In this document: one piece after another, positions 3,528 through 43,745 of the stretch
Position numbering within the stretch: the first letter of the stretch is position 1
How the letters are laid out: the number at the start of each line of letters is the position of its first letter
Source of the DNA: Desulfobacterales bacterium
GTDB lineage: Bacteria > Desulfobacterota > Desulfobacteria > Desulfobacterales > JASJAZ01
Assembly: GCA_030066785.1 (NCBI GenBank)
Contig: JASJAZ010000008.1
Span: 1 to 57,274 of the forward strand
Length of the DNA stretch: 57,274 nucleotides
Direction of reading: 5' to 3'
The notes under the pieces: model-generated
What the model was told of the DNA's origin: nothing
The model's database searches: none
What the model saw: the letters and a program-made list of their open reading frames with translations, nothing else
Translations under genes and position numbers: made by a program

Positions 3528-5636
3528 TCAGATCATATTTTGTGCCACAATTTCAGCGATATCCATTGTCTTAATCGTTTCTTCTTTCTCCAGCTCTTTC
3601 ATCCCGTCTTCGACCATTGTCAGGCAGAAGGGGCACCCCACCGCTACGGTGGATACATTCAGATTGACAATTTCCTCCGTTCTTTCCAGGTTAATTCGTT
3701 TGCCGATGGTCTCTTCCATCCACATGCGTCCCCCGCCGGCACCGCAGCAAAAACTTTCCCGGCCATGCCGATCGAGTTCCTTAACGGTGCCATTGGAAAC
3801 GGATTGCAGGATGGATCTGGGCTGATCGTAAATGTTATTGTAGCGTCCCAGGTAACACGGATCGTGATAGGTCAGCGCGCCTGCCGTTGCTTTATTCAGA
3901 CTGATTTTTCCCGCTTTGATGAGCCCGTCGATGAACTCGGCATGATGAATCACCTCGTAATGTCCGCCACTTTGAGGATAGTCATGCCTGAGGGTATTGA
4001 GGCAGTGCGGGCAGGCCGTGATTATTTTTTGAACGTTGTAGCCATTCAGGGTTGCAATGTTTTCCTCGGCCATCATTTGGTACATCATCTCATTGCCAAC
4101 GCGCTTGGCAAAATCACCGGTACATTTTTCCTCCACACCTAAGATGGAAAAGCTGATGCCTGCTTTTTGCAATATTTTAACCAGACTAATGGAAACTTTT
4201 TTGGATCGGTCGTCGAATGAGCCGGCGCAGCCCACCCAAAGCAGATAATCGACATCCGGGTTGTCGGCCATGGTTGTGACGCCCAAGCCTTCAGCCCAAT
4301 CGGCGCGTTTATCATAGCCGATTCCCCAGGGGTTGCCGTTGCGTTCGAGTCCTTTCAGGGCAGGGTTCAGCTCTTTGGGGTAAGACTCCGCCATCAAGGT
4401 TTGCCCTTGTCGCATGGCGATGATGCGGGGCACATGTTCAATGGTTACCGGACAGACCTCTTCGCAGGCACGGCAGGTGGTACATGCCCACAGCGTATCT
4501 TCGGCGATGACATCGCCCACCAACTGCTTCTTGCTGTTGTGTTCGGTGGCTGCTTCCTTCAGTTTTTCAATTTGATTTGCATCTTCGATTTGCTGGAGGG
4601 TGGATACCAATTTGGCTCTTTTGACAATATGATCAGCATTCTCATTCAGTTCATGCTTCAAATTGTCATTGAATTCATGCAAATTTAACGGCTTGTCGGT
4701 GGTGAAGGTCGGGCATACCTCTTTGCATCGTCCGCATTCGGTACAGGTATACAGGTCCAGACCCTGTTTCCAGTTGAGTTGATGGATGTGATTGATTCCC
4801 AGGGATTCATCCTCCCAGGCCTCTTCGTCTTCCAAATCCAGCAATTTAGGCTTTTCATGCGGATAGTCCAGGCTTTTTAGAAACACGTTGGGAAGTGCCG
4901 TGATCACATGAAAGTGTTTGCCCCGGGGCAGCAGATTTAAAAATACCAACTGGGTACAGATGTGCACCCAGAACATAATGACCATCAGGTAGTTGTGGGC
5001 TTCAAGGCCAAATCCTGAAATCAGGTTGGAGGCGCCCACCGCAACCGGTGTCCACCCGAATTCGGACCCGTATTGCGGATTATTGAAATAATGAAGATCT
5101 CCGGGATTGTTATATAATTGAACCAAATTGTAGCGTGCGCCGTCGTACAACAGATCAGACACCATTAAAATACCGATCAGCGCCAAGACCAAATAGGCTT
5201 CGAAGGTATTGTGCATGCGCTCGGGCTTTAAAACCGCGCGACGAAAAATGGCCCAGATGATCATCAACAAAACGATCCCTTCGGTAAAATCTTTGAGGGC
5301 CATGTACAGATAGCCGGGCAGGCCGTTGTCGCCCAGCAACGGCAGTTGAAATCCTGCCTGAAATCCCTCGCCATATAAATTCAAGCTGCGAATCAATAGG
5401 ATACAAAACCCCCAAAAGATGAACGCATGCATAATCCCGGAGCTTCTTTCTTTGGCCCGGCCGACCAGACGTTTCTGGCCCATGGCCAGAACGATCATAT
5501 TGATCAGCCGGTCTTTCAGACGGATGTCGCGATCGGCGGGCTCAAGCGCCTTTAACAATTGAATTTTGCGAAACATTGTGCGCCCGAATACCGTCAGCGC
5601 AATGATAAGTAAAAGCGCCATTAATAGGGGATTCAT
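3528..5636 (-). CDS. Membrane HdrD-like FeS/cytochrome b oxidoreductase (EtfAB:quinone oxidoreductase type)
   Basis: A 702-residue fusion of a NarI-like membrane domain and a heterodisulfide reductase D-like domain. About five hydrophobic helices fill residues 1-250 (for example MNPLLMALLLIIALTVFG and NYLMVIMFWVHICTQLVF). Then come two [4Fe-4S] motifs, CTECGRCKEVCP and CTTCRACEEVCP, and two CCG-type domains. The first has GCAGS, EKCTGD and CPHC (one Cys at the usual Cys-Cys position); the second has HDPCYLGR, FCCGAGGG and CPFC. Proteins of this type oxidise EtfAB and reduce menaquinone during acyl-CoA oxidation. It lies 178 bases downstream of etfA on the same strand, supporting that role. 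A paralogue at 29440-31506 differs in its first CCG domain. Confidence 0.9.
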   Translation of the reverse strand: MNPLLMALLLIIALTVFGRTMFRKIQLLKALEPADRDIRLKDRLINMIVLAMGQKRLVGRAKERSSGIMHAFIFWGFCILLIRSLNLYGEGFQAGFQLPLLGDNGLPGYLYMALKDFTEGIVLLMIIWAIFRRAVLKPERMHNTFEAYLVLALIGILMVSDLLYDGARYNLVQLYNNPGDLHYFNNPQYGSEFGWTPVAVGASNLISGFGLEAHNYLMVIMFWVHICTQLVFLNLLPRGKHFHVITALPNVFLKSLDYPHEKPKLLDLEDEEAWEDESLGINHIHQLNWKQGLDLYTCTECGRCKEVCPTFTTDKPLNLHEFNDNLKHELNENADHIVKRAKLVSTLQQIEDANQIEKLKEAATEHNSKKQLVGDVIAEDTLWACTTCRACEEVCPVTIEHVPRIIAMRQGQTLMAESYPKELNPALKGLERNGNPWGIGYDKRADWAEGLGVTTMADNPDVDYLLWVGCAGSFDDRSKKVSISLVKILQKAGISFSILGVEEKCTGDFAKRVGNEMMYQMMAEENIATLNGYNVQKIITACPHCLNTLRHDYPQSGGHYEVIHHAEFIDGLIKAGKISLNKATAGALTYHDPCYLGRYNNIYDQPRSILQSVSNGTVKELDRHGRESFCCGAGGGRMWMEETIGKRINLERTEEIVNLNVSTVAVGCPFCLTMVEDGMKELEKEETIKTMDIAEIVAQNMI

Positions 5637-5814: not shown

Positions 5815-6774
5815 TTAACTTCTTATTTTTTTAATTTCTTCGCGCAGAAGCGGAACCACCTCGAAAAGATCTCCCACGATACCATAGTCGGCCACGTTGA
5901 AGATAGGCGCTTCAGGGTCTTTGTTGACGGCCAGGATCACTTTCGAGCCGTTCATGCCCGCAAGGTGCTGAATCGCGCCGGAGATCCCCATGGCCATATA
6001 AAGAGTGGGCGCCACGATTTTACCGGTTTGCCCGACCTGCTTGTTATGGGCCATAAAACCACCATCGACCATGGCGCGGGAGGAGCCAAAGCCCGCCCCT
6101 AAATCGTCGGCCAGCGCTCTGATCAAATCGACGCCGGTCTGATCCTTGGCCCCGCGTCCCACGGAAATGACGATGTCGGCATCGGCCAGATCGATTTCAC
6201 CGGTGGCGTCTGATATGAGTTCCTTAATTACGGCTTTTACATCTGCTGCCGGGGTTGCTAGCCGGACGACATTTTCGGTTCCGGAAATTCCTTCGGTGGC
6301 CTCAAAGGCACCGGCGCGGACCACGGCCACCAGCCTCTCCGCATTGATTTTCACCCGTTGTTTCACTTTATTGGCAATGGCAGGTCTGATGATTTCAACT
6401 TGATCGCCATTGAGTATCACATCGGTAATTTCAGTTGCGCATGCGGCGCCCAGCTGCGCGGCAACTCTTGGAGAGGCGGCTTTGCCGCTTTCTGAAAAAC
6501 TGAACCAGATCAGATCGGCACCGAATTGGTTGGCCGCATCGACGACACAGGATGCGTATGGGCCTGCCGAAAACAGCTCCAATCCCGGATCATCGGCAAT
6601 GTATTGGGTATCGGAACCGGCGTTTGCCAATTCGGGAATTAACGCTTCCAGATTACTGCCAATGGCCACTACGGCCGCTTCGGCTCCAATGGCTTTGGCT
6701 TTTGATAAAAGTTCGGCTGTGCTGCCTTTCAGTGCCCCTTGCTTGATGTCTGCGATTACGAGTACTTTGGCCAT
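5815..6774 (-). CDS. etfA: Electron transfer flavoprotein, alpha subunit (copy 1)
   Basis: A 319-residue EtfA. The N-terminal domain (residues 1-190) has the usual AKVLVIADIKQGALK start. The C-terminal FAD domain carries VGRGAKDQTGVDLIRALADD, then GQTGKIVAPTLYMAMGISGA and VNKDPEAPIFNVADYGIVGD, which are the FAD-binding signatures. It pairs with EtfB encoded 63 bases upstream and takes electrons from acyl-CoA dehydrogenases in the cytoplasm. The likely acceptor is the membrane oxidoreductase encoded just downstream. A second EtfA is encoded at 32470-33438. Confidence 0.95.
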   Translation of the reverse strand: MAKVLVIADIKQGALKGSTAELLSKAKAIGAEAAVVAIGSNLEALIPELANAGSDTQYIADDPGLELFSAGPYASCVVDAANQFGADLIWFSFSESGKAASPRVAAQLGAACATEITDVILNGDQVEIIRPAIANKVKQRVKINAERLVAVVRAGAFEATEGISGTENVVRLATPAADVKAVIKELISDATGEIDLADADIVISVGRGAKDQTGVDLIRALADDLGAGFGSSRAMVDGGFMAHNKQVGQTGKIVAPTLYMAMGISGAIQHLAGMNGSKVILAVNKDPEAPIFNVADYGIVGDLFEVVPLLREEIKKIRS

Positions 6775-6837: not shown

Positions 6838-7623
6838 CTATAACACCTTGGCTTCATTAACCAAAAGATCGACGACCTTGGCGGTGATGTCGGCTGCGTC
6901 GCCTTCAAATTTCTGCCCGGCCTCGCGCGTTTCCGATTTCATAAATTCGACAATTTCCGATTTCAGTGCGGTACCTCCGACCTCCTCAAAAGAGGTACCA
7001 AGCGCCGATAGATCCATCACATCTATTTTCTTTTTCTTGGCCATCATGAGGCCGCGCATTCCGGGTAGCCTCGGTTCATTAATACTATCAGTAACCGTGA
7101 CGACGGCCGGCAACTCCAAAGCAACAATTTCAGTCCCATTATCACCCAGACGGGATACGCTGATGTGCTGGTCGTCTAATACCTCGATTGCGATCACATT
7201 GCTGACACAAGGTATTGCCAGATACTCGGCCAGCATAATGCCGGTTTGACCATTATCCGTATCCTGGGCTTGTTTACCAGTGATAATCAGATCATAACCC
7301 TCCTTCTCGTAGACCTTTTGCAAAACTCGGGCGAATACAGACGAATCCGCTTCGGTCAGTGTTGGATCATCGATTTGAATACCGTTGTCAATCCCCATGG
7401 CAAAGCCTCGGCGGATAATCTTGGTATTGTCTTCACCACCGCCGATACTGACCATGGTTGTTTCCGCATTGTTGTTTTCCTTTAGTTGGACGGTGGCTTC
7501 CACTGCATTTTCATCCCAGGCATTCATGACATACTGTAAGCCATCCTCTACAATGGCGCCGGCCTCCACGTTGATGGTTAATTCCACATCGACTACTTTT
7601 TTGATCGTGGTAAGAATTTTCAA
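6838..7623 (-). CDS. etfB: Electron transfer flavoprotein, beta subunit (copy 1)
   Basis: A 261-residue EtfB, first gene of the minus-strand etfBA operon. The protein shows MKILTTIKKVVDVELTI at the N-terminus, NAWDENAVEATVQLKE, the signature LIITGKQAQDTDNGQTG near residues 119-135 and EPRLPGMRGLMMAKKKK near the C-terminal arm. It forms the heterodimer with EtfA. A good promoter lies about 100 bases upstream (7722-7750) that is almost identical to the bamB promoter, suggesting that this Etf is made together with the benzoyl-CoA pathway. Confidence 0.95.
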   Translation of the reverse strand: MKILTTIKKVVDVELTINVEAGAIVEDGLQYVMNAWDENAVEATVQLKENNNAETTMVSIGGGEDNTKIIRRGFAMGIDNGIQIDDPTLTEADSSVFARVLQKVYEKEGYDLIITGKQAQDTDNGQTGIMLAEYLAIPCVSNVIAIEVLDDQHISVSRLGDNGTEIVALELPAVVTVTDSINEPRLPGMRGLMMAKKKKIDVMDLSALGTSFEEVGGTALKSEIVEFMKSETREAGQKFEGDAADITAKVVDLLVNEAKVL

Positions 7624-7721
7624 TTTGCCCTCCCGCTCTTGTTTGTTTCGTTGGTTCGGTTACCAGGCCTGATTTATGAAAAAAATAAGGAAATTGGAGT
7701 TAAAACGTAACTTGTTTTTTA

Positions 7722-7750
7722 TTAATATGTTAAGCAATATTGGGTGTCAA
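7722..7750 (-). promoter_or_regulatory. etfB promoter with TTAACATATTAA core
   Basis: On the minus strand, TTGACA (7750-7745), a 17-base spacer and TATTAA (7727-7722). The spacer end and -10 form the inverted-repeat-like core TTAACATATTAA (7733-7722), followed by ACAAGTTA. The bamB promoter has the same -35, spacing, core and downstream ACAAGTTA. Promoter function is inferred from consensus match. Confidence 0.75.
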
Positions 7751-7830
7751 GTGTTTTTTTAGAAAAAAATATTTCATTAGATAGGTCTTCCGTCTGTGAA
7801 GATGAGCCGTATTTTGCGAAAATTTGATGA

Positions 7831-7853
7831 CATATCATTTGCAAAATGATATG
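7831..7853. promoter_or_regulatory. Perfect 10-bp inverted repeat, possible operator
   Basis: Arms CATATCATTT (7831-7840) and AAATGATATG (7844-7853) are exact reverse complements around GCA. It lies between the MarR gene end (8062) and the etfB promoter (-35 at 7750), 80 bases upstream of that -35 element. Size and symmetry fit a transcription-factor site; the binding protein is unknown. There is no T-run, so a terminator for the MarR gene is less likely. Confidence 0.5.
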
Positions 7854-8061
7854 CGCCGGATTGACAGCCTGCAGACAGAGCAGGATTTGACAGGAGGGTT
7901 TAATAGAAAGGTAGAATCTGTGTACCGTCACCGGAATAATATCATGGGCACTAGATTTCATTCCGTCTGTATCAGGCGGATATGTGGTGATATCTGCGGT
8001 AGTCTGTTCGTTTTTATGACGGCCAAAGCCGCCATGGACTTGAATCCGGGCTAGAGGACCG

Positions 8062-8550
8062 TTATTTTTTTAAGGGGCTGTTGCTATATAACTGTTTTAA
8101 GTCGCCCAACAGTCTTTTTTTCCCTTCTTCTGAAAAGCTTCTTAAATAGTTGCCTATGTTTTCATCATGCGCCGTCTGTATGTTTCTTATCACCTGTCTT
8201 CCTTTAGGCGTAATTTCAAGAATTGTTATGCGTTCGTCTTTTGAATCATGTTTCCTAAGAATAAACCCGTTTTTTTCTAATCGTTTGGCGACACCGGTCA
8301 TATTGGGTCCCGACACCAGCATGATTTTGCTTGCAATCGTCACTGAGTTTTGACCATCTTTAGAGTTATGTAAAACCCTCAGGGCATTGTATTGTGAAAA
8401 GGTCAACCCATAGTTTTTATAGATGGTATCGCAATCTTTTTTATATACTTCGGAAGCTTTGACCAGGGCCACTAATACTTTCTCATCAATTTTCAGACCG
8501 CTTTTATAGTTATAGGCACCCCAATCGGGTCTTTCGGATTCATCAGGCAT
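8062..8550 (-). CDS. MarR-family transcriptional regulator (BadR-like position)
   Basis: A 162-residue winged-helix regulator. Residues 25-60 form the first helices, then LTFSQYNALRVLHNS and SVTIASKIMLVSGPNMTGVAKRLEKNGF (recognition helix), and the wing KHDSKDERITILEITPKGR, all typical of MarR. It is divergent from bamB and lies directly upstream of the etfB operon. MarR-type regulators such as BadR control benzoate degradation in other bacteria. By position it is the candidate regulator of both bam and etf operons, probably answering to an aromatic acyl-CoA; this is inference. Confidence 0.9.
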   Translation of the reverse strand: MPDESERPDWGAYNYKSGLKIDEKVLVALVKASEVYKKDCDTIYKNYGLTFSQYNALRVLHNSKDGQNSVTIASKIMLVSGPNMTGVAKRLEKNGFILRKHDSKDERITILEITPKGRQVIRNIQTAHDENIGNYLRSFSEEGKKRLLGDLKQLYSNSPLKK

Positions 8551-8592
8551 GGCAGCATCCTCAACCTTTTAAGTATCGCATTAACCTTACCG

Positions 8593-8650
8593 TTATTACG
8601 TAATTAGTTATTTACACATGTCTTATATAAAACACCTTCTCAAAATACAA
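8593..8650 (-). promoter_or_regulatory. Promoter and possible operator of the MarR gene
   Basis: On the minus strand, TTGTAT (8650-8645), 17 bases, TATAAG (8627-8622). Just downstream, around the expected leader start, lies the palindromic TTACGTAA (8596-8603), part of TACGTAATTAGTTA (8597-8610), which occurs again at 43354-43367. Location after the -10 would suit autorepression. Confidence 0.5.
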
Positions 8651-8953
8651 TATATATTTTAGCTTCACGCTATTATTTCAATAACAATCTAAAAATATAT
8701 ATAAAAATTGTGGTTAAATAAAAAGATACGCAGTCCCTGTGCATCAGCTCGGCCGATTAAACCCCCTGCAGGCAACGCATCAAAATGAAATTTTATCAAT
8801 CGTTGCTAAAGCTAGCAGCAGAAGCAATGAGGTGGTTGCAAGCATTGCGGGTTAATGTAAAATACTATAACTTACTGTTATTCTAAATAATAAAGTATCT
8901 ATTTGATTTTACCGTGGGGGCCTGAAATTATTGCCTTCCGGCCTAAAAAAAGC

Positions 8954-9000
8954 TTGACAAGCAAATCTTGTTAACATATTAACAAAATACAAGTTAACAA
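8954..9000 (+). promoter_or_regulatory. bamB operon promoter with overlapping inverted repeat
   Basis: TTGACA (8954-8959), a 17-base spacer and TATTAA (8977-8982). An inverted repeat, TTGTTAA and TTAACAA separated by CATA (8968-8985), overlaps the -10, and a further TTAACAA follows at 8994-9000. A repressor bound here would block RNA polymerase. The ribosome binding site AAGGGG (9031-9036) precedes the bamB ATG at 9044. Confidence 0.75.
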
Positions 9001-9043
9001 ATAATACTTTATGCAATAAAGATGATTACAAAGGGGCCTAAAT

Positions 9044-11035
9044 ATGAGGTATGCAGAAACGGGGTTTAATCTAGAAGTTGATTTAACCCGGGGAAACATT
9101 GAAAAGGTAGCAACTGACCCTAAAGACACCGAACTCTATCTGGGCGGCCTGGGTACGAATGCCAAGATATTATGGGACAGGGTACCTCCCGAAGTCGAGG
9201 CCTTTTCTCCCGAGAATCTATTGATATTCGCAGCCGGACTATTATGCGGCACGCCTGCCATCGGTTGCAATCGTACAATTGTCACCACCATTTCTCCCCA
9301 GACCAAGCTGATGGCATTTTCAATGATGGGAGGCTTTCTTGCACCGGAATTAAAGTATGCCGGGTACGACAAAGTGATCCTTCGCGGCAAGTCCCCATCC
9401 CTGGTATATTTATGGATCAACAACGACAAGGTTGAAATTCGGGATGCCGCTCATCTCAAAGGCAAAGGCGCCATTGAAACGGCGGAAATTATCCGCAAAG
9501 AACTGAAGCAGCCCAAAGCCCAGGTCGCCGCTATCGGTATGGCCGGTGAAAATAGGGTTTTTTATGCGTCCATTGAGCAGGGCCGCTCCAGCGCCAGTCG
9601 CGGCGGTATCGGGGCCGTCATGGGCGACAAAGGGGTAAAGGCCATTGTTGTCCGCGGCACTCAGGACATCAATGTTGCCCAGCCTGAAGCGTTTATGGAA
9701 CTCACTAACGAAGTAATGGATTATATACAATTCCGGAATGACAATCCCATTCCGGGGGTCATGCCGATTCTGGCTGGGCTTGGATCGCCCCAGGAGATGA
9801 AGGTCCATGATGAGAAGTGGCACACTGAAAACTTCAATTGGGGAAATTCCCGAACCCGGCGCAAAGGCTTTTGGACCGATGAAATTGCCCTTGAGTGGAT
9901 GGAAACACTGGACAATGCCCGCACGCGGCTGATTAGTTGCTATAACTGCCCGATGACCTGCGGCGCAACCATTTCCATGCCGGGCCTGCCGACCTATATG
10001 ATGAAATGCTTTACCAAACTAACCTATACAATGGCCGCATATTCCGACCTCGATTTCGGTTTGAGGATTGCCCAGCGTGCCACCGAATACGGCCTGGACG
10101 GATTTTCCGCCCCCCAAGTGATGGCCTTCGCCCTTGAATTGCTCGAAAACGGAATTCTGACCGATGATGATTTCCCGGAAATGCCGGCTGATACCGAGGG
10201 CCGATTCTATTATCTGCTGGACAAAATTGTTCGACGTGAAGGTATTGGAGACATCCTGGCCAACGGCACTTATTGGGCGGCCAAAGAGATCGGCAACGGC
10301 GCCGAAGATTATGCCCATAACAACATCAAGAAGCACGAACAGCTACCGCTCAAACTTTCCATGCTCAATCCGATTTACTATTTGATGTACTGCACGGGCG
10401 AAAAGATCAACATTACCCAGATTGAAGGCCAGTTTCCCCAGGCGCCCTACCCCAAGAAAGAGCACCGGGAAGCGTTTGTGAAGGACTGGCACCAGGTTCC
10501 GGACGATAAGTTCAAACAATATTTTGTGGACTGGAACCCGCGCGGAGAGAATTCAATGCCCTTTTATCCAACCGTTGACATGTGTTGCGATATTGTCGAC
10601 TGGCAAGAGATGATGCACTACATCGATGACGCACTCGGTCAGTGTGCGGGCTTGTCATCCTTCCCTCTGAAACCACCCTACCATATCCACAATTACCCCA
10701 AGTTTATTTCAGCAGGCGCTGGCATCGAGATGGATGAAGACTCGTTGAGCAAGGCCGCCAAAAGATACCGAACCCTGGTCAGAGCGATTAATATTAGAAG
10801 GGGTATGCGAAGAAAAGATGAGACGCCGCCGGAAAACCATTGGAAGAAAAGGTTTCCCGAACTTGAAAAGGAGCTGTTGGATACCTACTACAAATTCAAG
10901 GGCTGGAACCACGACGGCATTCCCACCAAAGCGTCTTTACACGAATTGGGGCTCGACTATGTTGGTGAAGATTTTGTTAAGAGAGGGATCTTAACGGTTA
11001 ATGAGGATGTTCCTTCCGAAGAGGCAACAGCCTAA
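9044..11035 (+). CDS. bamB: Class II benzoyl-CoA reductase, tungsten active-site subunit BamB
   Basis: A 663-residue member of the aldehyde:ferredoxin oxidoreductase family. The N-terminal tungstopterin domain has YLGGLGTNAKILWD and the conserved RGGIGAVMGDKGVKAIVVRG near residues 187-206. The [4Fe-4S] ligands are CYNCPMTC near residues 304-311 and a later Cys in GQCAGLSSF. BamB reduces the ring of benzoyl-CoA to cyclohexa-1,5-diene-1-carbonyl-CoA without ATP, in complex with BamC. The assignment rests on this motif set plus the exact bamBCDEFGHI order downstream. It is the first gene of the operon, under a strong promoter at 8954. Confidence 0.93.
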   Translation: MRYAETGFNLEVDLTRGNIEKVATDPKDTELYLGGLGTNAKILWDRVPPEVEAFSPENLLIFAAGLLCGTPAIGCNRTIVTTISPQTKLMAFSMMGGFLAPELKYAGYDKVILRGKSPSLVYLWINNDKVEIRDAAHLKGKGAIETAEIIRKELKQPKAQVAAIGMAGENRVFYASIEQGRSSASRGGIGAVMGDKGVKAIVVRGTQDINVAQPEAFMELTNEVMDYIQFRNDNPIPGVMPILAGLGSPQEMKVHDEKWHTENFNWGNSRTRRKGFWTDEIALEWMETLDNARTRLISCYNCPMTCGATISMPGLPTYMMKCFTKLTYTMAAYSDLDFGLRIAQRATEYGLDGFSAPQVMAFALELLENGILTDDDFPEMPADTEGRFYYLLDKIVRREGIGDILANGTYWAAKEIGNGAEDYAHNNIKKHEQLPLKLSMLNPIYYLMYCTGEKINITQIEGQFPQAPYPKKEHREAFVKDWHQVPDDKFKQYFVDWNPRGENSMPFYPTVDMCCDIVDWQEMMHYIDDALGQCAGLSSFPLKPPYHIHNYPKFISAGAGIEMDEDSLSKAAKRYRTLVRAINIRRGMRRKDETPPENHWKKRFPELEKELLDTYYKFKGWNHDGIPTKASLHELGLDYVGEDFVKRGILTVNEDVPSEEATA

Positions 11036-11067: not shown

Positions 11068-11613
11068 TTGAAATCTCAAAAGACCAAAAAAACAATCAAA
11101 ACAATAAAAATCGATGTGGACAAATGCAACGGTTGCCGGGCCTGTGAAATGATCTGCTCTGCTTTTCACGCCGAACCGAAATACAGCAGCAATAATCCCG
11201 CTAGATCGAGGATTCGAATTATTCGCGAACCACTGCGCGACCTATACATTCCTGTTTATGCAGGTGAATATGCCGTTGCCGAGTGCGCGGGTAGGGATAA
11301 ATACACCATTGACGGGAAAGAATATGACGAGTGCTCTTTCTGTCGGGCATCGTGCCCGTCAAGGGACGAATTCAAAGAACCCGATTCCGGCCTCCCGCTC
11401 AAATGTGATATGTGCGAGGGTGAACAGGAGCCCTTGTGTGTAAAGTGGTGCATGCACGACGCATTGCTTCTTGAAGAAAGAGAAGAAGAAGTCGATGAAC
11501 CGGAGCCCGAGGATGAACAGGAAGAGTTGGAAATCGGATTGGAAGCTTTGGCTGACAAGTACGGCTTGGAAAAGGTAAAAGACGCGATGGCCCGAATTTC
11601 TAAAAAGGATTAA
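11068..11613 (+). CDS. bamC: Benzoyl-CoA reductase FeS subunit BamC
   Basis: A 181-residue polyferredoxin that shuttles electrons to BamB. Cysteine groups are CNGCRACEMIC near residue 19, CSFCRASC near 91 and CDMCEGEQEPLCVKWC near 113, enough for three [4Fe-4S] clusters. The C-terminal 50 residues are very acidic (EEREEEVDEPEPEDEQEE) and have no cluster motif; they may be a docking tail. The start is a TTG at 11068, chosen because GGAGGG at 11054-11059 sits eight bases before it and no in-frame ATG fits. It lies 32 bases after bamB. Confidence 0.9.
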   Translation: MKSQKTKKTIKTIKIDVDKCNGCRACEMICSAFHAEPKYSSNNPARSRIRIIREPLRDLYIPVYAGEYAVAECAGRDKYTIDGKEYDECSFCRASCPSRDEFKEPDSGLPLKCDMCEGEQEPLCVKWCMHDALLLEEREEEVDEPEPEDEQEELEIGLEALADKYGLEKVKDAMARISKKD

Positions 11614-11648
11614 CCCGGCAAGGTCAAAAAAAAGGATCAATAAAGACA

Positions 11649-12800
11649 GTGGAAACAGTCGCCCCTTTCAAAGAAGTCATTGATGAGATTAAAGAATCAG
11701 GTGGAGACGCCTTCAGGTACTGCTTTCAATGCGGATTATGTGATACGGTTTGCCCCTGGAACAAGGTCAGGCAATTCAGCATCCGCAAGATCATTCGTGA
11801 AGCGACATTTGGATTGACCGAAATCGAAGGCGAGAATATATGGCGCTGTACGACCTGCGGAAGATGCCCTGAGCGTTGTCCCAGAGGCGTGAAACAGATT
11901 GAGGTCGGAGTTTCTCTGCGACGGGTCGCCTCAGCCTATGAAGTTTTTCCCGCCTCGGTACGCTCCGCGCGTACGGCCAGAGCCAGCCTCATCTCCGAAG
12001 GTAACCCTCTGCAGGTGGAACGCAGCAAGCGTGCGGATTGGGCCAAGGGTCTGGCGGTTAAAACATTCAGCGAGGAAATGGAGATATTGTACTTCGCTGG
12101 CTGTTACCTTAGTTTCGATCCCAGAATGAAAAAGGTGGCTGTGGCCACGGCCGATATCCTCAACAAGGCCGGCGTTGACTTCGGCATACTGGGCAACAAA
12201 GAAAACTGCTGCGGCGAGAGCATCCGCAAAATCGGCAGTGAGAATGTATTTAAGGATCTAGCCAAACAAAACATCAAAACTTTTATCGATGCGGGTGTGA
12301 AAAAAATCGTTGTTTCATCACCGCATTGCTACCACACCTTCAAAAATGAATATCCTGAATTCATGGTGAACTTTGAGGTAATTCATATCGCTCAGTATAT
12401 ATCTGAGCTGATCAATGAAGGGCGACTTCAGATAAGCAATGCCTATGACAAAAAAGTAACCTATCATGATCCGTGTTACCTAGGGCGACATAACGACATA
12501 TATGATGCGCCCCGCGACATACTTCAGAAAATTCCCGGGTTGGAGCTGGTCGAGATGGTGGATTCTCGCTCTAACAGCTTATGCTGCGGCGGCGGTGGCG
12601 GAAGAATTTGGATGGACACGCCCAAGGAGGAAAGATTTTCAGATATTAGATTACAGCAATCCAAAGCTTCGGGGGCGCAGGTGCTGGTCACGGCCTGCCC
12701 TTATTGCATCACCAACTTCGAGGAAAGCCGCTTGAACCTCGAGTATGATGACGTCATAGAAATTAAGGATATCACGGAAATTATCCAGGAAATTATCTAG
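11649..12800 (+). CDS. bamD: BamD, HdrD-like FeS protein
   Basis: A 383-residue soluble protein with two [4Fe-4S] motifs at the N-terminus (CFQCGLCDTVCP and CTTCGRCPERCP) and two CCG domains like HdrB/HdrD. The first has AGCYLSF, NCCGES and SPHC, so the first Cys of the CxxC pair is Ser; the second is complete (HDPCYLGRHND, LCCGGGGGRIW, CPYC). It has no membrane helices, unlike the two membrane oxidoreductases of this window. It is thought to link BamBC with the BamE-I electron-bifurcating part. It starts at GTG 11649, 35 bases after bamC. Confidence 0.88.
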   Translation: METVAPFKEVIDEIKESGGDAFRYCFQCGLCDTVCPWNKVRQFSIRKIIREATFGLTEIEGENIWRCTTCGRCPERCPRGVKQIEVGVSLRRVASAYEVFPASVRSARTARASLISEGNPLQVERSKRADWAKGLAVKTFSEEMEILYFAGCYLSFDPRMKKVAVATADILNKAGVDFGILGNKENCCGESIRKIGSENVFKDLAKQNIKTFIDAGVKKIVVSSPHCYHTFKNEYPEFMVNFEVIHIAQYISELINEGRLQISNAYDKKVTYHDPCYLGRHNDIYDAPRDILQKIPGLELVEMVDSRSNSLCCGGGGGRIWMDTPKEERFSDIRLQQSKASGAQVLVTACPYCITNFEESRLNLEYDDVIEIKDITEIIQEII

Positions 12801-12867
12801 CCCATATTGGGACTAACCCGGCCGATCTAAGATTCAATGGCCTGAAAATATAATGAGGGGATCGAAA

Positions 12868-15800
12868 GTGGAAAACGAAGTATTGCCAAAGGAAGTCATT
12901 CAACAATTTTCCGGGAGCCTTGAAGGCGCCAATTTCGGAGATGTTATGGTTGTCGGCGGCGGCATCAGCGGCATCCAGGCGTCTCTTGATCTGGCCACGG
13001 CAGGATTTAAAGTCTATTTGGTTGAAAAAGGACCAAGCATTGGCGGCCATATGGCCCAGCTTGACAAGACCTTTCCAACCAATGACTGCTCCATGTGAAT
13101 CCTGGCGCCCAAACTGGTCGAGGTCGGCCGGCACCCCAACATAGAAATTTTGACATTCACGGAAGTCGACGGTGTAGAGGGACAAGCAGGTGATTTCAAA
13201 GTCACCCTGACCACCAAGCCCCGATACATTATCGAGGACAAATGCACGGGCTGCACCACCTGCGTAAAGTACTGCCCGGTAGAATACCCCGATCCCTTCA
13301 ATCAAGAAATATCGGACAACAAGGCTGTGCATGTATACTTTTCCCAGGCTATTCCCCTGGTGGCCTACATTGACGAAAGCTGTCTTTTTCTGAAAGAGGG
13401 AAAGTGCGATATCTGCCGAGGCGTGTGTCAGGCCGATGCCATCGATTTCAAACAAACCACAGAGAAAAAACAAGTCAATGTCGGGGCCATCATCTTGTCA
13501 TCCGGCATGCAACCGTTCGATCCGCAAACCAAAGATGAATACCAATACGGCAAGCTGCCGAATGTGGTCACCAGCATGGATTATGAACGGCTGCTTTCCT
13601 CCACCGGCCCATACGGCGGCAAGGTATTGCGCGGTTCCGACCGCAAGCATCCCCAGAAGGTCGCCTGGATTCAATGTGTCGGATCCAGACGGGTGCTCGA
13701 GGATGAAAACAGTTATTGCTCCGGCGTATGCTGCACCTATACCCAGAAGCAGGTGATCCTGACCAAGGATCATGAACCCGACGCCCAGTGCACCATTTTC
13801 CATAACGATATTCGCTCGTACGGCAAGGATTTTGAACGCTACTTTCAAAGGACGGAACAACTGCCCGGCGTAGAATTCATCAGAAGCTACACCTCCATCG
13901 TCGGAGAAAACCCGGCAAACAATAACGTCATTGTAAGATATGCGACCAATGATGATGGCGTCAAAGAAGAAGAATTCGAAATGGTGGTCTTGTCGGTGGG
14001 ATTGAATCCTCCGGCGGACAATGCGGTCTTGGCGGATAAATTCGGCTTAGAACTCAGTTCTCACGGATTCAATAAAGCCATTCACTCCAATCCCATGGAG
14101 ACCAATCAACGCGGCATTTTTGTCAGCGGCGCCTTTCAGGGACCTACCGATATACCCGAATCGGTATTTAGCGCCAGTGCGGCCGGCACCCAGTGCGGCG
14201 AAATGCTTGACTACCGGCGTGGGAAGCTGTCTACGGAGAGGGTTTATCCGCCCGAACGCGATATCTCCCAAGAGGCGCCCAAAATCGGCGTCTTTGTGTG
14301 CCATTGCGGGGCGAATATCTCCAGTGTGGTAAATGTTCCCGACACCGTAGAATATGCCATGACCCTGCCCAATGTGGTCTACGCCCAGGAACAGCTCTTT
14401 TCCTGCGCCAACAATTCTGCCAAGGAAATATCCGATCTGGCCAAGGAAAAAGGACTGAATCGGGTGGTGATCGCAGCTTGCTCCCCCCGAACCCTGGAGC
14501 CGTTGTTCCGGGACACCCTGCGCGAAGCCGGTCTTAATCAATATTACCTGGATATGGCCAATATCCGGGAGCACTGCTCCTGGGTGCATTCCAAAGAAAA
14601 GGAAGAGGCCACGGAAAAGGCGCAGGATATCATCAGAATGTCGATTGCCCGTGCCGGCCATCTGGAACCCTTGCAGGAATTCGACCTTCCGGTGAACAAA
14701 ACGGCCTTGGTGGTCGGCGGCGGTATCGCCGGTATGACCTGCGCGCTTTCCATCGCCAAACAGGGGCATGAGGTTCACCTGATTGAAAAAGCCAAAGACT
14801 TAGGCGGCATAGTCCGCCGAATCCATACCACCATCGAAGGGATGGATGTTCAAGCATATTTGAATGATCTGATACGGGCGGTCTACAATAATCCCCTTAT
14901 CCACGTATCCCATGAAGCCACCATCACCGACGTATCCGGCTACCTGGGTAATTTTGTTACCACGGTAAAGGCCGAAGGCCGGATCAAAGAGATCAAACAT
15001 GGCGCCTCGGTCATTGCCATCGGCGCGGACGTGTACAAACCCACCGAGTACCTTTACGGCGAAAATGATAAGGTCTTTACCCACATCGAATTAGGCGAAG
15101 AAATCGCCAAGCAAAATGAAACCGTTCTTAATGCCGAAAGCCTGGTGATGATCCAGTGCGTCGGCTGTCGAAACGAGGACAGAAATTATTGCAGTCGGGT
15201 GTGCTGCAGCCACGCGGTAAAAAATGCCTTGAAACTTAAAGAGACCAATCCTGCGATGGATATTTACATCCTCTTTCGGGACATGCGTACCTATGGATTG
15301 CGAGAGGATTATTACCGCGAAGCATCGGACAAACATGTAAGGTTTATTCGCTACGTACCGGAAGATCCGCCGCTGGTGGAAACAGCCAAAGAGGGCGGCA
15401 AAGATATTATTCGGGTCACCGTGCCGGATACCATTCTGGGCCAGCGGCTTGAGTTGGATGCCGATATCCTCTCGCTGGCGGCGGCGGTCATTCCTTCTGC
15501 ATCGACCAAAGAGGTCGCCGGGTTGTTCAAGGTGACATTGAGCCCGGATGACTTCTTTAAAGAAGCCCATGTCAAGCTAAAGCCCGTGGAGTTTGCCACT
15601 GATGGCGTATTTCTATGCGGAACGGCGCACTATCCCAAGCATATCCAGGAAACGATCAACCAGGCCTACGGCGCCGCCGGTCGGGTCCTGACGCTGCTTT
15701 CTAACGATACGGTTACCGCCTCGGGGTCGGTTTGCGAGGTGATCGAAAACGATTGTGTTTCATGCGGTGCCTGCATTACGGCATGCAGCTATGCCGCTAT

Positions 15801-16005
15801 AGATTTTATCGACACACCGAAAGGTAAAAAAGCGTGGGTCAATCCGATTCTCTGCAAGGGCGACGGTCTTTGCACGGCAAAGTGCCCCACCAGTGCGATT
15901 TTCCTGAAGCACTTTACCGATGAAGCAATTTGGAGCCAAATTGATGCGGCCACCACAAGTGAAGAGATAATACAGCAAATTGATGCCGCGGCTGAAAATG
16001 AATAA
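12868..16005 (+). CDS. bamE: BamE, HdrA-like FAD/FeS selenoprotein (UGA decoded as Sec)
   Basis: One reading frame runs through an in-frame TGA at 13096-13098. Upstream it reads FPTNDCSM and downstream [15 protein letters not shown]; HdrA homologues have Cys at the TGA position, so Sec is inserted (codon 77 from GTG 12868, codon 82 from ATG 12853). GTG is preferred because GAGGGG lies seven bases before it. The protein of about 1045 residues carries two HdrA-like FAD modules: [20 protein letters not shown] near the start and [20 protein letters not shown] near the middle. FeS motifs include [12 protein letters not shown] and two C-terminal ferredoxin clusters ([24 protein letters not shown]). 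FAD here is the likely bifurcation site. A hairpin at 13114-13131 may be the SECIS. Confidence 0.92.
13096..13131 (+). promoter_or_regulatory. Sec UGA codon and SECIS-like hairpin in bamE
   Basis: UGA at 13096-13098. Downstream CTGGTC (13114-13119) can pair with GGCCGG (13126-13131) over six pairs, two of them G-U, leaving the loop GAGGTC. The loop contains GGUC, as in the Escherichia coli fdhF SECIS, starting 23 bases after the UGA, which is within the usual range. Function is inferred from this likeness. Confidence 0.6.
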
Positions 16006-16055
16006 GGGTGTATACATGAGGCAAGTCATAAAGGCGATCAAAGGGGGTGAAAGTG

Positions 16056-16823
16056 ATGAGTGCCGGCCTTGAATTTAAACCTAAAGTTTTAGGCTTTGTC
16101 TGCCATTGGTGAGCCTACGGGGCTGCTGACCTGGCTGGAGTTTCCAGACTACAATATACAAGTGAAATGCGGCTTATTCGGATCATGTGTTCCGGTCGCA
16201 TCGACTTGGAATTCATCCTCAGAGCTTTCGCAAATGGACAAGACGGCGTGTTTATCGGCGGTTGCCGCTTAGATGAGTGCAACTATATCACCCACGGCAA
16301 TTACGATGCGTGGGCCAATACCTACCTATGTAAAAAGATATTAGCGTACATGGGCCTGAACCCCGCGAGGCTGAGAATCGATTTTATGTCCGGCGCCGAC
16401 GGGAATCTGCTGGCCGAAGCCACCGACGATTTTACCGCGCAATTAAAAAAGCTGGGACCCATCGGTGAAAGTGAAGGATTAGACCCTAAGGCGTTAAAGG
16501 TTGGTCTCGAAGCGGCCAGGAAATTGGTTCCTTACATCAGGCTGGTGGAAAGAGAACGGCTCAGAGTACCAGTTAAGACCAAAGAAGCGTATACTGAATT
16601 TTTTGAAAGCAACGAGACAGACCGGTTAGTTGATGACCTTTTATCAGATAAGTGGGCGATCAGCCAGATCATGTTGCTTTTAGAGGAGAAACCCCTTTCG
16701 ACGAGAGACATTTCTGAAAGGCTGGGCCTGAACCCGTCCGATGTGTCCCGACACATGAACACTTCATCACGGCACGGGTTGGTTAAGTACGATGCCGCCA
16801 ACAAATGTTACACGTTGGCCTGA
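16056..16823 (+). CDS. bamF: BamF, MvhD/FrhD-like FeS selenoprotein (UGA decoded as Sec)
   Basis: The frame begins at ATG 16056 (AAAGGGGGTGA ribosome binding site at 16040-16050) and contains TGA at 16110-16112, reading VCHW-Sec-AYGAADLAG. MvhD/FrhD homologues have Cys there, in the CxWC-x-YG motif that binds the [2Fe-2S] cluster. It continues with MCSGRID, GGCRLDECNY and a C-terminal extension that looks like a winged helix (STRDISERLGLNPSDVSRHM), unusual for plain MvhD. The protein is about 255 residues. MvhD passes electrons between HdrA and a hydrogenase or NADH module; here the partners are BamE and BamGHI. A reading from ATG 16167 would lose the cluster motif. Confidence 0.9.
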
Positions 16824-16836
16824 GGAAAGACGGATT

Positions 16837-17289
16837 ATGGATATCGAAAAAATAGACCGGATCATTGATAAACATAACAGCGACGCCAGCGCACTTATTC
16901 AAATACTGCTGGATATTCAAAGCGAAAACAACTGGCTTCCTAAAGAAGCCCTGGACAGGGTTAGCCAACAGTTAGAAGTTCCGGCAACCCGGGTACAGCA
17001 CATCGCTACCTTTTATAAAGCCTTTAGTGTGGTTCCCAAGGGGCGTCATAAGGTCCACATATGTATGGGGACGGCCTGTCATGTCCGCGGAGCAACCCGC
17101 GTACTTGACAAAGTGCAGGAAGCGACGGGAATCAAACCCGGCGAAACGGATCTGGAATTGAAATTCAGCCTGGAAACCGTCAACTGCCTTGGTTGTTGTG
17201 CCTTGGGGCCGGTGATGGAAGTTAACGGTAAAGCCCATGGTAAGATGACACCGAGACAAACAACAGACGTGCTTAAAACTTATGAGTAG
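16837..17289 (+). CDS. bamG: BamG, NuoE-like [2Fe-2S] subunit
   Basis: A 150-residue NuoE/HydA-type thioredoxin-like ferredoxin. The four cluster ligands are in CMGTACHVRGA and NCLGCCALGP. The start is ATG 16837, six bases after TGAGGAAAGA, which itself overlaps the bamF stop; a longer frame from 16792 would run into bamF and is not supported. With BamH and BamI it forms an NADH-oxidising module like NuoEFG. Gene spacing on both sides is 13 and 9 bases, so it is translationally linked. Confidence 0.92.
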   Translation: MDIEKIDRIIDKHNSDASALIQILLDIQSENNWLPKEALDRVSQQLEVPATRVQHIATFYKAFSVVPKGRHKVHICMGTACHVRGATRVLDKVQEATGIKPGETDLELKFSLETVNCLGCCALGPVMEVNGKAHGKMTPRQTTDVLKTYE

Positions 17290-17298
17290 GGGAAAATT

Positions 17299-19221
17299 AT
17301 GGCGCGGTTAAATACGCCTGAAGCATTGGAGTCCTTCAGACAGGAGTTGCTATCTAAAAAAGATCCCAACACGCCATGCATCTCAATCTGTGCCGGTGCC
17401 GGTTGTATCGCTTCGGGTGCGGATGAGGTGATTGCCGCTTTTCAGGCCGAGATTGAAAAAGAAGGCCTGACCGCCAAGGTTGACACCAAGGGAACCGGGT
17501 GCCCGGGATTTTGTGAGCAGGGACCTGTTGTGGTGATCTATCCTGAAGAGACATGCTATCTGCAGGTGCAGGCTGAAGATGTTCCCGAGATCGTTTCCCA
17601 GACGATTAAAGCGCATGAGGTTGTCGAACGCCTGCTCTATGAAGATCCGGTCACAGGTGAAAAAGTAACTCGGGAGTCCGATATCCCCTTCTATAAAAAC
17701 CAGCAGCGGACGCTTCTGTGCAGCAATATTAAAATCGATTCCAAAAGCATCGATGACTACCTGGCCATTGGCGGTTACTCGGCACTGAGCAAAGCCCTCT
17801 TCCAAATGACCGACGTGGCGGTTTTGGAAGAAGTCAAAAAATCAAACCTCAGAGGAAGGGGTGGTGCGGGTTTTCCGGCCGGTCGGAAATGGGAAGGCTC
17901 CCGCAATGCCGCCGAGCCGATCAAATATGTGATCGTCAATGCCGATGAGGGTGATCCCGGCGCGTTTATGGATCGGGCATTGCTGGAAGGCAACCCGCAT
18001 TCAATTCTCGAAGGACTGATCATCGGCGGCTTCGCTGTCGGCGCCCAAGAAGGCTATGTGTATGTGCGTCAGGAATACCCTCTGGCGGTTGAAAACATCA
18101 ACCTGGCCATCAAGCAGGCCGAAGCTTACGGTTTTCTGGGGGAAAATATCCTGGGTTCGGGATTTAATTTCAAAGTCATCGTCCACATGGGGGCGGGTGC
18201 GTTTGTCTGCGGTGAATCAACCGCATTAATGACGGCCTTGGAGGGCCGTGTCGGTGAGCCCAGGCCCAAGTATACTCGATCCAATATCAAAGGCCTTTGG
18301 GAAAGGCCTTCGGTGTTGAACAATGTCGAGACCTGGGCCAATGTGCCGTTAATCATCAATAACGGTGCTGACTGGTTTACCACCGTCGGCACAGACGGCA
18401 GCAAGGGGACCAAAATCTTTTCGCTGGTGGGCAAGATCACCAATACCGGGCTTGTGGAGGTCCCCATGGGAATCACCCTGCGAAATATCATTTACAATAT
18501 CGGGGGTGGAATCCCTGAAGGCAAGAAGTTCAAGGCGGTGCAGACCGGCGGTCCCTCCGGCGGATGTATTCCCGAAGATCAATTGGACCTTGAAGTCGGA
18601 TTTGATGAGTTGACCAAGGCCGGCTCAATGATGGGTTCCGGCGGGATGATCGTTATGGATGAAGATACCTGCATGGTCGATGTCGCCCGGTACTTCATCG
18701 AATTCCTCACGGATGAATCCTGCGGCAAGTGTATCCCGTGCCGGGAAGGTTTGCGGCAGATGCACAGAATTTTAACCAATATCACCAGAGGAAAGGGAAA
18801 AGAAGGTGATATCGAGCTTTTAGAGGAGCTGTCCGAAACGGCCATTGAAGCCTCCCTTTGCGCATTAGGAAAAAGTGCCCCCAATCCGTTTTTGAGTACG
18901 CTGAACTATTTCAGGGATGAGTATGAGGCCCACATCAGGGACAAACGATGTCCGGCACTGTCCTGCAAGGATTTGGTTTCGTATGTGATCGACCCGGACA
19001 AGTGCCAGGCCTGTATGATATGCCTGCGGAAATGTCCGGCCGATGCAATCATCGGCGGCAAGAAAAAGATTCATGTGGTTGACCAGGAAAAATGCACCAA
19101 TTGCGGAACCTGTCTTGAGGTCTGTCCCTCCCGATTCGGTGCGGTAAAAATAGTTTCAGGCGAATTAGACCTGCCCCCCATCCCTGAAGAAGAACGCAAC
19201 ATAGCCAGAAAGAGCAACTAA
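17299..19221 (+). CDS. bamH: BamH, NuoF-like NAD(H)/FMN subunit
   Basis: A 640-residue flavoprotein. Order of domains: an N-terminal thioredoxin-like [2Fe-2S] part with CAGAGC and GTGCPGFCEQGP, the NuoF core with NADH/FMN motifs LRGRGGAGFPAGRKWE near residue 184 and DEGDPGAFMDRALLEGNP, the [4Fe-4S] motif SCGKCIPCREG near 474, and two C-terminal ferredoxin clusters (CQACMICLRKCP, CTNCGTCLEVCP). This is the architecture of bifurcating HydB/NuoF-like proteins. In the Bam complex it should oxidise or reduce NAD(H) while passing electrons toward BamEF. Confidence 0.93.
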   Translation: MARLNTPEALESFRQELLSKKDPNTPCISICAGAGCIASGADEVIAAFQAEIEKEGLTAKVDTKGTGCPGFCEQGPVVVIYPEETCYLQVQAEDVPEIVSQTIKAHEVVERLLYEDPVTGEKVTRESDIPFYKNQQRTLLCSNIKIDSKSIDDYLAIGGYSALSKALFQMTDVAVLEEVKKSNLRGRGGAGFPAGRKWEGSRNAAEPIKYVIVNADEGDPGAFMDRALLEGNPHSILEGLIIGGFAVGAQEGYVYVRQEYPLAVENINLAIKQAEAYGFLGENILGSGFNFKVIVHMGAGAFVCGESTALMTALEGRVGEPRPKYTRSNIKGLWERPSVLNNVETWANVPLIINNGADWFTTVGTDGSKGTKIFSLVGKITNTGLVEVPMGITLRNIIYNIGGGIPEGKKFKAVQTGGPSGGCIPEDQLDLEVGFDELTKAGSMMGSGGMIVMDEDTCMVDVARYFIEFLTDESCGKCIPCREGLRQMHRILTNITRGKGKEGDIELLEELSETAIEASLCALGKSAPNPFLSTLNYFRDEYEAHIRDKRCPALSCKDLVSYVIDPDKCQACMICLRKCPADAIIGGKKKIHVVDQEKCTNCGTCLEVCPSRFGAVKIVSGELDLPPIPEEERNIARKSN

Positions 19222-19222
19222 A

Positions 19223-19837
19223 ATGAGCGACATTCCTTTACAGATAGATGGCCAAGAAGTCAGTGCCAAGGAAGGCACAACTGTTTTAGAAGCAGCCCAG
19301 GGTATGGGGATATCCATACCCACGCTTTGCCACCACGAAAAATTGGAACCCTTTGGAGGATGCCGGCTTTGTATTGTAGAAGTGGAATCGCGTGGCTGGA
19401 CCAAGCTGGTGGTTTCCTGTGTTTATCCGGTTGAAGAAAATTTAGTGGTCAGAACCAGATCCGACAAAGTGGATCGACTCCGCAAGACCATCCTGGAACT
19501 GCTGCTGGCCCACGCCCCGGACGCACCGCAATTGGTGGAATATGCCCAGGTATACGGCGCAGATAAAGACCGTTATGAGAAAGATCCTTCATTCTGCGTC
19601 CATTGCGGACTTTGTGTCAGATATTGTGCCGAGGTAAAAAAGGCCGACGCACTGGGTTTTGTTGACCGCGGTATTCGCAAAGAGATCAGTTTTATTCCCG
19701 AAATCGCCGCCAAGGAATGCAATGCGTGCAAAGAATGCTTTCCGCTCTGCCCGACATCGTATCTCCAAGCTGCTTTTGTTTTAACCGAATCGCTGGCGTT
19801 TCCTTCGTCGTCGGCCAAATCCGTTTCAAAGGCATAG
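19223..19837 (+). CDS. bamI: BamI, NuoG N-terminal-like FeS protein
   Basis: A 204-residue protein like the N-terminus of NuoG or HydA. A [2Fe-2S] ferredoxin domain has PTLCHHEKLEPFGGCRLC and a later Cys in VVSCVYP. Then come CVHCGLCVRYC and CNACKECFPLCP for two [4Fe-4S] clusters. No hydrogenase H-cluster or molybdopterin domain follows. The ATG is one base after the bamH stop. It closes the bamB-I set; bamR begins 51 bases downstream. Confidence 0.9.
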   Translation: MSDIPLQIDGQEVSAKEGTTVLEAAQGMGISIPTLCHHEKLEPFGGCRLCIVEVESRGWTKLVVSCVYPVEENLVVRTRSDKVDRLRKTILELLLAHAPDAPQLVEYAQVYGADKDRYEKDPSFCVHCGLCVRYCAEVKKADALGFVDRGIRKEISFIPEIAAKECNACKECFPLCPTSYLQAAFVLTESLAFPSSSAKSVSKA

Positions 19838-41576: not shown

Positions 41577-42050
41577 TTATCGCCTTACGCCGGTGAGTTT
41601 TAATGCCGACTGCCTGGTTTGGGCATATTGGAGCATGCTCGCCTCCCTAAATGTTAGCGCCATAGGTTCGCAAAAATGAACGCACAAGGGGTCTCCCCCA
41701 CAAAGATCACATTTAAAAGGTCGCCCCCGGTGGTCATCAAATCCAATGGCACCGAAAGGACAGGCATGGATACACATCTGGCAGCCGACACAAAGGTTGT
41801 AGTCAATGACGGTTCGCACATGCTCACTATCCCGATAGATAGCCTCCTTGGGGCAGGCTGCCGCGCAGGGTGCGTCCTCGCAATGTTGACAGGCGAGGGG
41901 CAGATACTGACCGTAAGCTTCCATCTCTAAAATACGAACGCGGGATTTTTCCGGATTGCAAACCCCGGCTTTGCGCATTGAGCAGGCGACCCGGCATAGC
42001 CCGCAACCTGTGCATTTATTGGGATCCGACATTAATACTCTCGTAGTCAT
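41577..42050 (-). CDS. Polyferredoxin, AOR-associated electron-transfer subunit (left module)
   Basis: A 157-residue protein with four cluster motifs: CTGCGLCRVAC, CQHCEDAPCAAACP, CVGCQMCIHACPFGA and CDLCGGDPLCVHFC. It is a clear paralogue of the protein at 45715-46224, with the same order and spacing. Start ATG 42050 lies 14 bases after the truncated AOR-like gene and has AGAGTGG before it. Such four-cluster proteins partner AOR-type tungsten enzymes. That its direct upstream gene encodes an AOR lacking its own FeS site is notable. Confidence 0.88.
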   Translation of the reverse strand: MTTRVLMSDPNKCTGCGLCRVACSMRKAGVCNPEKSRVRILEMEAYGQYLPLACQHCEDAPCAAACPKEAIYRDSEHVRTVIDYNLCVGCQMCIHACPFGAIGFDDHRGRPFKCDLCGGDPLCVHFCEPMALTFREASMLQYAQTRQSALKLTGVRR

Positions 42051-42064
42051 GAACCACTCTCCAT

Positions 42065-43150
42065 TTAAGCTTTTAACTGGTCCCACAGATCATCGATCCG
42101 CAGCCGATCAAATACCTTCCTTTTTTTAACCACCGCCTTGCGGGTCCACCCGTAATCACGATACTTCTCGGCTGTCCGTCCTCTTTGAGCGGCAATACCC
42201 TCCCTGATGTTATACAGTCGTTCAAGCGTGATACAGCGGTAAGCAATATCTTTCAAATCGTTTTCATTCAGCACCACGCCGGTGTTGAGCCGGATCCGGT
42301 CCAGCGCAGTTGCAAAGACAGATGCCGTGACATCACCGCCACCATTTGTTCCCAAAGGCAGACCGAGGCACTGCTTAATGGTTTCTTCGATTTCCATCAA
42401 CTCTACCTTTCCTGCCGGACCGCTGATTATAGACGCCTCTAAATCATTTGATGGTGTTATTGGGTCCAAATGACGATTTAGATAGTTCTTTTCGTATTCA
42501 ATAATACCCTCGGGATCTTTTACCTCTATGTCCAAGGTTCCCCTGCAGGCCACTGCTTCAATATTTTTATTGGCAAGGACCGCACCTACGTCGCTGCTTT
42601 CCGGTTCGTCATCAGGGGATAAAGAATCATCTTCAAGCAAAAACCGATCTTCCCCCTCTTTTTTGATGCCGAGCAATCGGGTTTCTCTGCCGGCTGTGGC
42701 ATCACGAAGATTTGTTCTGCGTTCAATCGGATTCTTTCCCGCGAAGTTGGGTGCTTCGATAAGCTCGATATGGCTGTCATGGATGAAAAGATAGGTTGGT
42801 CTATTGGCCCGGCCTTTAAAAACAATGTGATCAAAACCCGCCTGGCGCATCTCAGAGGCAAATGGGCCGTTCAGGCGCGCCCTTGACATTAAATCTGTGG
42901 ATCCGGATTTGGTTGTAAGAATCGTATATCCCTGGGTAGCGCTCAATGTACCACCCAACAATCCACTACTGATCACACAAACATTTTCGGCGGAGAGTGG
43001 GTGGCACTTTTTCGGCGCATATCTACAGAGCAGATAGACCGCAAGACCAGCACCTCCAAGAAATCTATCTCGCAAATCCGCCGATACCGGAAAAGTGTCG
43101 ATGTGACGCCGGGCGAGATCTATAAAGGCAATTTTTCGATATAATGCCAT
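42065..43150 (-). CDS. AOR-family paralogue lacking the FeS-binding middle part
   Basis: A 361-residue protein. Residues 1-215 follow the tungstopterin domain of AOR (FLGGAGLAVYLLCRYA, GGTLSATQGYTILTTKSG, DVGAVLANKNIEAVACRG). Residues from about 290 follow the AOR C-terminus (LNTGVVLNENDLKDIAYRC, LERLYNIREGIAA). Roughly 280 residues of domain 2/3 present in the full-length AOR at 43746-45686 are missing, including the CxxCxxxC cluster ligands. There is no stop or frameshift, and the gene heads an operon, so it may be a non-catalytic or scaffold subunit. It could also be a neutral deletion derivative. Confidence 0.82.
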   Translation of the reverse strand: MALYRKIAFIDLARRHIDTFPVSADLRDRFLGGAGLAVYLLCRYAPKKCHPLSAENVCVISSGLLGGTLSATQGYTILTTKSGSTDLMSRARLNGPFASEMRQAGFDHIVFKGRANRPTYLFIHDSHIELIEAPNFAGKNPIERRTNLRDATAGRETRLLGIKKEGEDRFLLEDDSLSPDDEPESSDVGAVLANKNIEAVACRGTLDIEVKDPEGIIEYEKNYLNRHLDPITPSNDLEASIISGPAGKVELMEIEETIKQCLGLPLGTNGGGDVTASVFATALDRIRLNTGVVLNENDLKDIAYRCITLERLYNIREGIAAQRGRTAEKYRDYGWTRKAVVKKRKVFDRLRIDDLWDQLKA

Positions 43151-43744: not shown

Positions 43745-43745
43745 A

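Follow-up and report, generated by a model that had tools for sequence, protein, structure and literature searches.

BadR is a MarR repressor of the bad-ali genes in Rhodopseudomonas palustris and Aromatoleum sp. CIB, with cyclohexanecarboxyl-CoA as its effector (PMC9795900), and CoA thioesters are also the ligands of MarR proteins that govern other aromatic pathways (PMC4424350, PMC4737184). For the benzoate genes of Geobacter, BamVW and BgeR are cited as regulators (PMC4424350, PMC7324539). In Desulfobacteraceae, catabolic and regulatory networks were called essentially unknown in a 2025 study (PMC11887813).

The locus described here lies in a window of 57,274 nt (the whole stretch of DNA analysed), where a marR gene is located between an etf operon and a class II bam operon:

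3528..5636, minus strand: FeS/CCG oxidoreductase, probable Etf:menaquinone oxidoreductase (EMO-type; PF02754 and 4Fe-4S domains), presumed to act on quinone; ends the etfBA operon and follows etfBA in relatives
5815..6774, minus strand: etfA of set 1 (PF00766, PF01012)
6838..7623, minus strand: etfB of set 1 (PF01012), with an 84% orthologue behind a matching site in genome G197
8062..8550, minus strand: marR, 162 aa, predicted regulator of both promoters (PF01047, 5e-11; PF12802; PF22381)
9044..11035, plus strand: bamB, active-site subunit of class II benzoyl-CoA reductase (AOR family, PF02730/PF01314) and first gene of the bam operon; loci 82-90% identical in Desulfobacterota
11068..19837, plus strand: bamC to bamI-like genes downstream of bamB (FeS protein, HdrD-like, HdrA-like, MvhD-like, NuoF-like and others)

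The regulator scores above the cut-offs of PF01047 (42.7 bits, cut-off 24.6) and PF12802 (34.1 bits, cut-off 27), and the best PDB matches of its winged-helix model (monomer model, pLDDT 79.9) are all MarR proteins, with Z of 12-14. Its best NCBIfam model is HpaR TIGR02337, which stays below threshold (57.5 bits against a curated cut-off of 121.2); CouR is not among the 50 structure matches listed for the model, which excludes nothing. The bam-like genes are followed by a crotonase-family protein, whose match to dienoyl-CoA hydratase TIGR03189 is below cut-off, and then by TIGR03201 and TIGR03200, enzymes of the ring-cleavage pathway, both above cut-off. Close BamB relatives bearing a specific name are mostly from Desulfobacterota, and a few MAG labels differ. 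The bamE-like (12802-16005) and bamF-like (16011-16823) genes contain in-frame TGA in typical contexts, including VCHW-U-AYGAADLAG, and the open reading frame listing cuts their N-termini; their products are probably selenoproteins. A second AOR-family gene (43494-45686, 730 aa) is found 32 kb from bamB, near genes for an FeS protein (41577-42086), an IclR regulator (48564-49343) and a UbiD-family protein (50969-52333).

The initial annotation had described near-identical promoters for bamB and etfB, and both were found where it had placed them, aligning without gaps. The promoters, and the operator elements that we predict within them, are:

8943..9006, plus strand: bamB promoter region with A-tract, TTGACA (8954-8959), 17-nt spacer and TATTAA (8977-8982), aligned with five other promoters from three genomes
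8953-8996, plus strand: bamB site, with TTAACATATTAA at 8971-8982, containing TATTAA, and ACAAGTTA at 8989-8996
7698..7761, minus strand: etfB promoter region with A-tract, TTGACA (7750-7745), 17-nt spacer and TATTAA (7727-7722)
7708-7751, minus strand: etfB site, with TTAACATATTAA at 7733-7722, containing TATTAA, and ACAAGTTA at 7715-7708
8972..8981, plus strand: predicted operator element 1 of bamB, TAACATATTA, overlapping the -10
8987..8996, plus strand: predicted operator element 2 of bamB, ATACAAGTTA, 15 bp downstream of element 1 and near the likely transcription start; the sigma-70 consensus does not explain it
7723..7732, minus strand: predicted operator element 1 of etfB, TAACATATTA
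7708..7717, minus strand: predicted operator element 2 of etfB, AAACAAGTTA

Both promoters follow the same ungapped order of A-tract, CTTGACA, N12, TAACATATTA, N7 and ACAAGTTA, with a best ungapped identity of 42/55 over 55 bp. In an all-against-all comparison of 55-mers across the window, this pair is tied second, the other top pairs being one short tandem repeat and paralogous protein-coding stretches. The gap between TTAACATATTAA and ACAAGTTA, previously given as four to six bases, is exactly 6 nt in both promoters, although the two motifs are present in the order described. A promoter scan listed neither promoter, because the scanner requires a T in the final position of the -10.

The initial annotation had also proposed a genome-wide motif scan, and this returned the bamB and etfB sites only: TTAACATATTAA-N6-ACAAGTTA has exactly two matches in the 4.62-Mb genome, both in the window and flanking marR, while a reversed control pattern gave 0. 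A 64-bp profile likewise recovered these two sites alone (E 6.4e-15 and 3.0e-11, both sites being in the training set; next best 0.14), in a draft assembly of 278 contigs and 92.9% completeness from which a third site could be missing. One further match, at C140:17034 with 3 mismatches, was dropped for having neither a -35 nor an A-tract. An operator-only profile (R2) added no further convincing site in this genome or in G197. Motif and profile searches found no site at the promoter of marR itself, and thus the usual MarR autoregulation was not seen. Nor did they find one in this genome at the second etf set (31682), in agreement with the initial annotation; its suggestion that the two Etf branches are regulated differently draws on this absence of the motif.

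Comparison with related genomes, in which sites were searched with a sequence-only profile built from six promoters (R1), extended the pattern. In the Desulfobacterales MAG G197, a 75% identical MarR adjoins bamB, and two clear sites (next R1 match E 0.85) are located on different contigs, one at bamB and the other some 65 bp upstream of etfB-etfA-oxidoreductase. In the Desulfobacula MAG G196 (MarR 70%), one site belongs to the second of its bam operons and one to a molybdopterin oxidoreductase/AMP-ligase cluster; a further site, absent from training, is immediately in front of a TRAP dctQ gene that runs divergently from marR (R1, E 1.5e-6). Two sites outside training were likewise found in G357 (MarR 67%; R1, E 1.3e-6 and 3.1e-6), at the divergent promoters of bamB2-bamC2-marR and of a molybdopterin oxidoreductase cluster. 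In G403, a 74% MarR is encoded inside the bam operon, the bamB promoter falls off the contig end and there is no close orthologue of EtfB1. The marR orthologues are linked to bam genes in G197, G403 and G357, and in the first two marR also adjoins a TRAP plus aromatic amino-acid lyase cluster. Single matches to the pattern with 2 mismatches in six other genomes were discarded, since they were at the same level as the reversed control.

The two bam operons of G196 differ in this respect. The one most similar to the operon in the window (L120:8223-18001, BamB 89%), along with its etf genes, has no site by motif and profile search, whereas the other (L010:1487-12326, BamB 56%) has one, suggesting that they encode separately regulated reductases. 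A 27-bp operator-like stretch is identical in G403 (L196:9068-9094) and G197 (L011:8444-8470), between marR and the dctP-dctQ-dctM and aromatic amino-acid lyase cluster; the R2 profile does not find it, and it possibly marks a further target.

Taken across eleven sites, the consensus TAAC-AT-ATTA, N5, WAAC-AA-GTTA consists of two 10-bp elements, 15 bp apart. Element 1 reads TAAYATATTA in 9/9 clear sites from four genomes, with one C in the TRAP site, and TAACATATTA and TAACAAGTTA agree at 8/10 positions (shuffle p 0.006). Each 10-bp element has partial dyad symmetry, no more than suggestive by column permutation (p about 0.12 for either element). Between this genome and G197, the distance to the -35 shifts by 1 bp (further in G197), while the spacing of TAACATATTA-N7-ACARGTTA is kept; because this 7-bp spacing stays constant as the -35 moves, the two motifs appear to form one binding unit apart from the promoter hexamers. 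In the etfB promoter of G197 (L119:3052-3105), another 15 bp along, a weaker third repeat follows (TAACAGGTTT), a hint that several dimers may bind cooperatively.

It could be argued that the two promoters look alike because both are strong promoters of the housekeeping or an alternative sigma factor, or because one arose from the other by recent duplication nearby, since TTGACA-17-TATTAA resembles a sigma-70 promoter and the two copies are less than 1.3 kb apart. We regard this as very improbable. ACAAGTTA is no sigma element, and its conservation downstream, along with the presence of only two sites in the genome, rules out plain sigma-70 similarity, as the genome scans and the relatives rule out chance similarity. 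The spacer and flanks of the two promoters are not alike, which bears out the earlier view that this is no simple recent copy, and the operator unit occurs on separate contigs in both G197 and G196. Moreover, promoter skeleton and operator are separable, because the etf-oxidoreductase-bam promoters of two other loci (L013:5863-5935 and L024:5687-5760) keep the A-tract and CTTGACA but differ downstream. There, a different repeat (around CTACAATATAGTTACATTGT) is possibly the operator of another regulator; with skeletons alike and operator regions not, regulators seem to have been exchanged on the bam pathway.

The distribution of the site follows that of this MarR lineage. A scan of 389 genomes of the order detected full sites in G000, G324 (the genome G196) and G357, and MarR orthologues of at least 67% identity in the same three and G403. 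Full sites are thus present in 3/4 genomes with such an orthologue and in 0/385 others (Fisher 4e-7, a value that ignores relatedness and is too small, as the four genomes are related). Among 80 bamB loci, the one from G197 (L011) is the only one with a MarR orthologue beside bamB and the only one with a site; the other 79 have no site. More distant MarR homologues (44-49%) have a related site nearby in G057 (E 7.5e-4) and in G261 (E 0.013, the best of that genome), suggesting that a wider MarR group uses a similar operator type.

This distribution bears on whether another regulator, such as a two-component or a TetR/Rrf2 protein, binds the common sites while the adjacency of MarR is incidental. 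Other bam systems are indeed served by BamVW or BgeR (PMC4424350). However, the sites track the MarR lineage, being near MarR in G000, G197, G357 and G196 in differing arrangements, and related sites also accompany the homologues in G261 and G057, so that we consider another regulator improbable.

The genomic context of the Etf set was compared across the same 80 loci. The genes etfB-etfA-oxidoreductase immediately precede bamB, in its orientation, in L009 (where etfB lies beyond the contig piece), L013 and L024, and precede it by 1.4 kb in L025; etfB is downstream of the bam genes in L010, L014, L022, L023, L043 and L048. In G196 and G357, etfB follows an FdhD-like gene. Many relatives without the site thus encode EtfBA and the quinone oxidoreductase within the bam operon or next to it, and this Etf set therefore belongs with bam. 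In the present genome and in G197, etf and bam are instead separate transcription units with a common promoter, as one regulon would require.

The claim that a single regulator, the MarR protein, controls both bamB and the Etf/quinone branch therefore stands in part. It is favoured by the repetition of the pairing in G197, the co-occurrence of site and MarR across the order, the sites adjoining marR and the etf-bam linkage, but the pairing is not general, as G196 and G403 illustrate. Site and MarR are missing from most bam genomes, and bamB and etfB are paired in two genomes only. Comparisons of sequence and gene order give good support to joint control by MarR of bamB and the Etf/quinone branch. 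We consider it probable that a common operator is present at both promoters, bound most likely by the MarR protein encoded between them, and that the predicted repression is released by an aromatic CoA thioester or another intermediate.

In the proposed mechanism, MarR would bind two tandem 10-bp elements, 15 bp apart and of the form TAAC-nn-RTTA. Since the first of them overlaps the -10 and the second lies around the likely start, bound MarR should block RNA polymerase, which makes repression the most natural interpretation. If BadR and CouR are a guide, MarR would be released by a CoA thioester or another intermediate formed as aromatic acids are broken down, and the operons for benzoyl-CoA reductase and for EtfBA/quinone oxidoreductase would be turned on together. 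A CoA-thioester ligand is likely, judging from these regulators, and benzoyl-CoA is one candidate.

MarR might instead bind both sites as an activator or dual regulator, or respond to a ligand unrelated to benzoyl-CoA, such as another aromatic acid or its CoA ester. This is possible though doubtful. The predicted regulon of the relatives exceeds benzoyl-CoA reduction, also taking in the TRAP transporter, the molybdopterin oxidoreductase with its AMP ligase and the second bam operon, and the lyase cluster beside marR in G197 and G403 points the same way. Against this, repressors usually sit where elements 1 and 2 do, on the -10 and the start region, and the -35 matches TTGACA perfectly.

Beyond repression at these two promoters, we lean towards the broader reading that an undescribed MarR lineage of Desulfobacterota is the specific regulator of class II benzoyl-CoA reductase, acting via paired TAAC-nn-RTTA elements 15 bp apart, and that a dedicated Etf/quinone branch is thereby coupled with ring reduction, through a joint operon in some species and through a common operator in others. 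In a genome with at least two Etf sets, EtfBA with its quinone oxidoreductase would thus be tied to ring reduction, which bears on the electron route to the membrane. A predicted regulator, its exact operator and its target genes are now named for direct testing.

MarR regulons are already known in anaerobic aromatic degradation, and this locus would add one for class II benzoyl-CoA reductase. BamVW and BgeR similarly control the benzoyl-CoA pathway in obligate anaerobes, BamVW differing in being a two-component system. CouR and HpaR are similar in MarR fold and aromatic-pathway setting, but have low identity and serve other pathways. BadR is likewise a MarR-type protein encoded beside anaerobic ring-degradation genes, and its 10-bp operator at the promoter likewise has two 4-bp arms separated by 2 bp (CAAT-nn-ATTG for BadR, TAAC-nn-RTTA here; PMC9795900). 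The BadR operator CAAN4TTG is absent from 7690-7765 and 8940-9015, and no bad-ali genes neighbour marR, which is flanked by etfBA-oxidoreductase and the class II bam genes. Unlike in BadR, two elements 15 bp apart extend here over the -10 and the start, and the predicted targets are the class II bam genes and the Etf/quinone branch instead of bad-ali.
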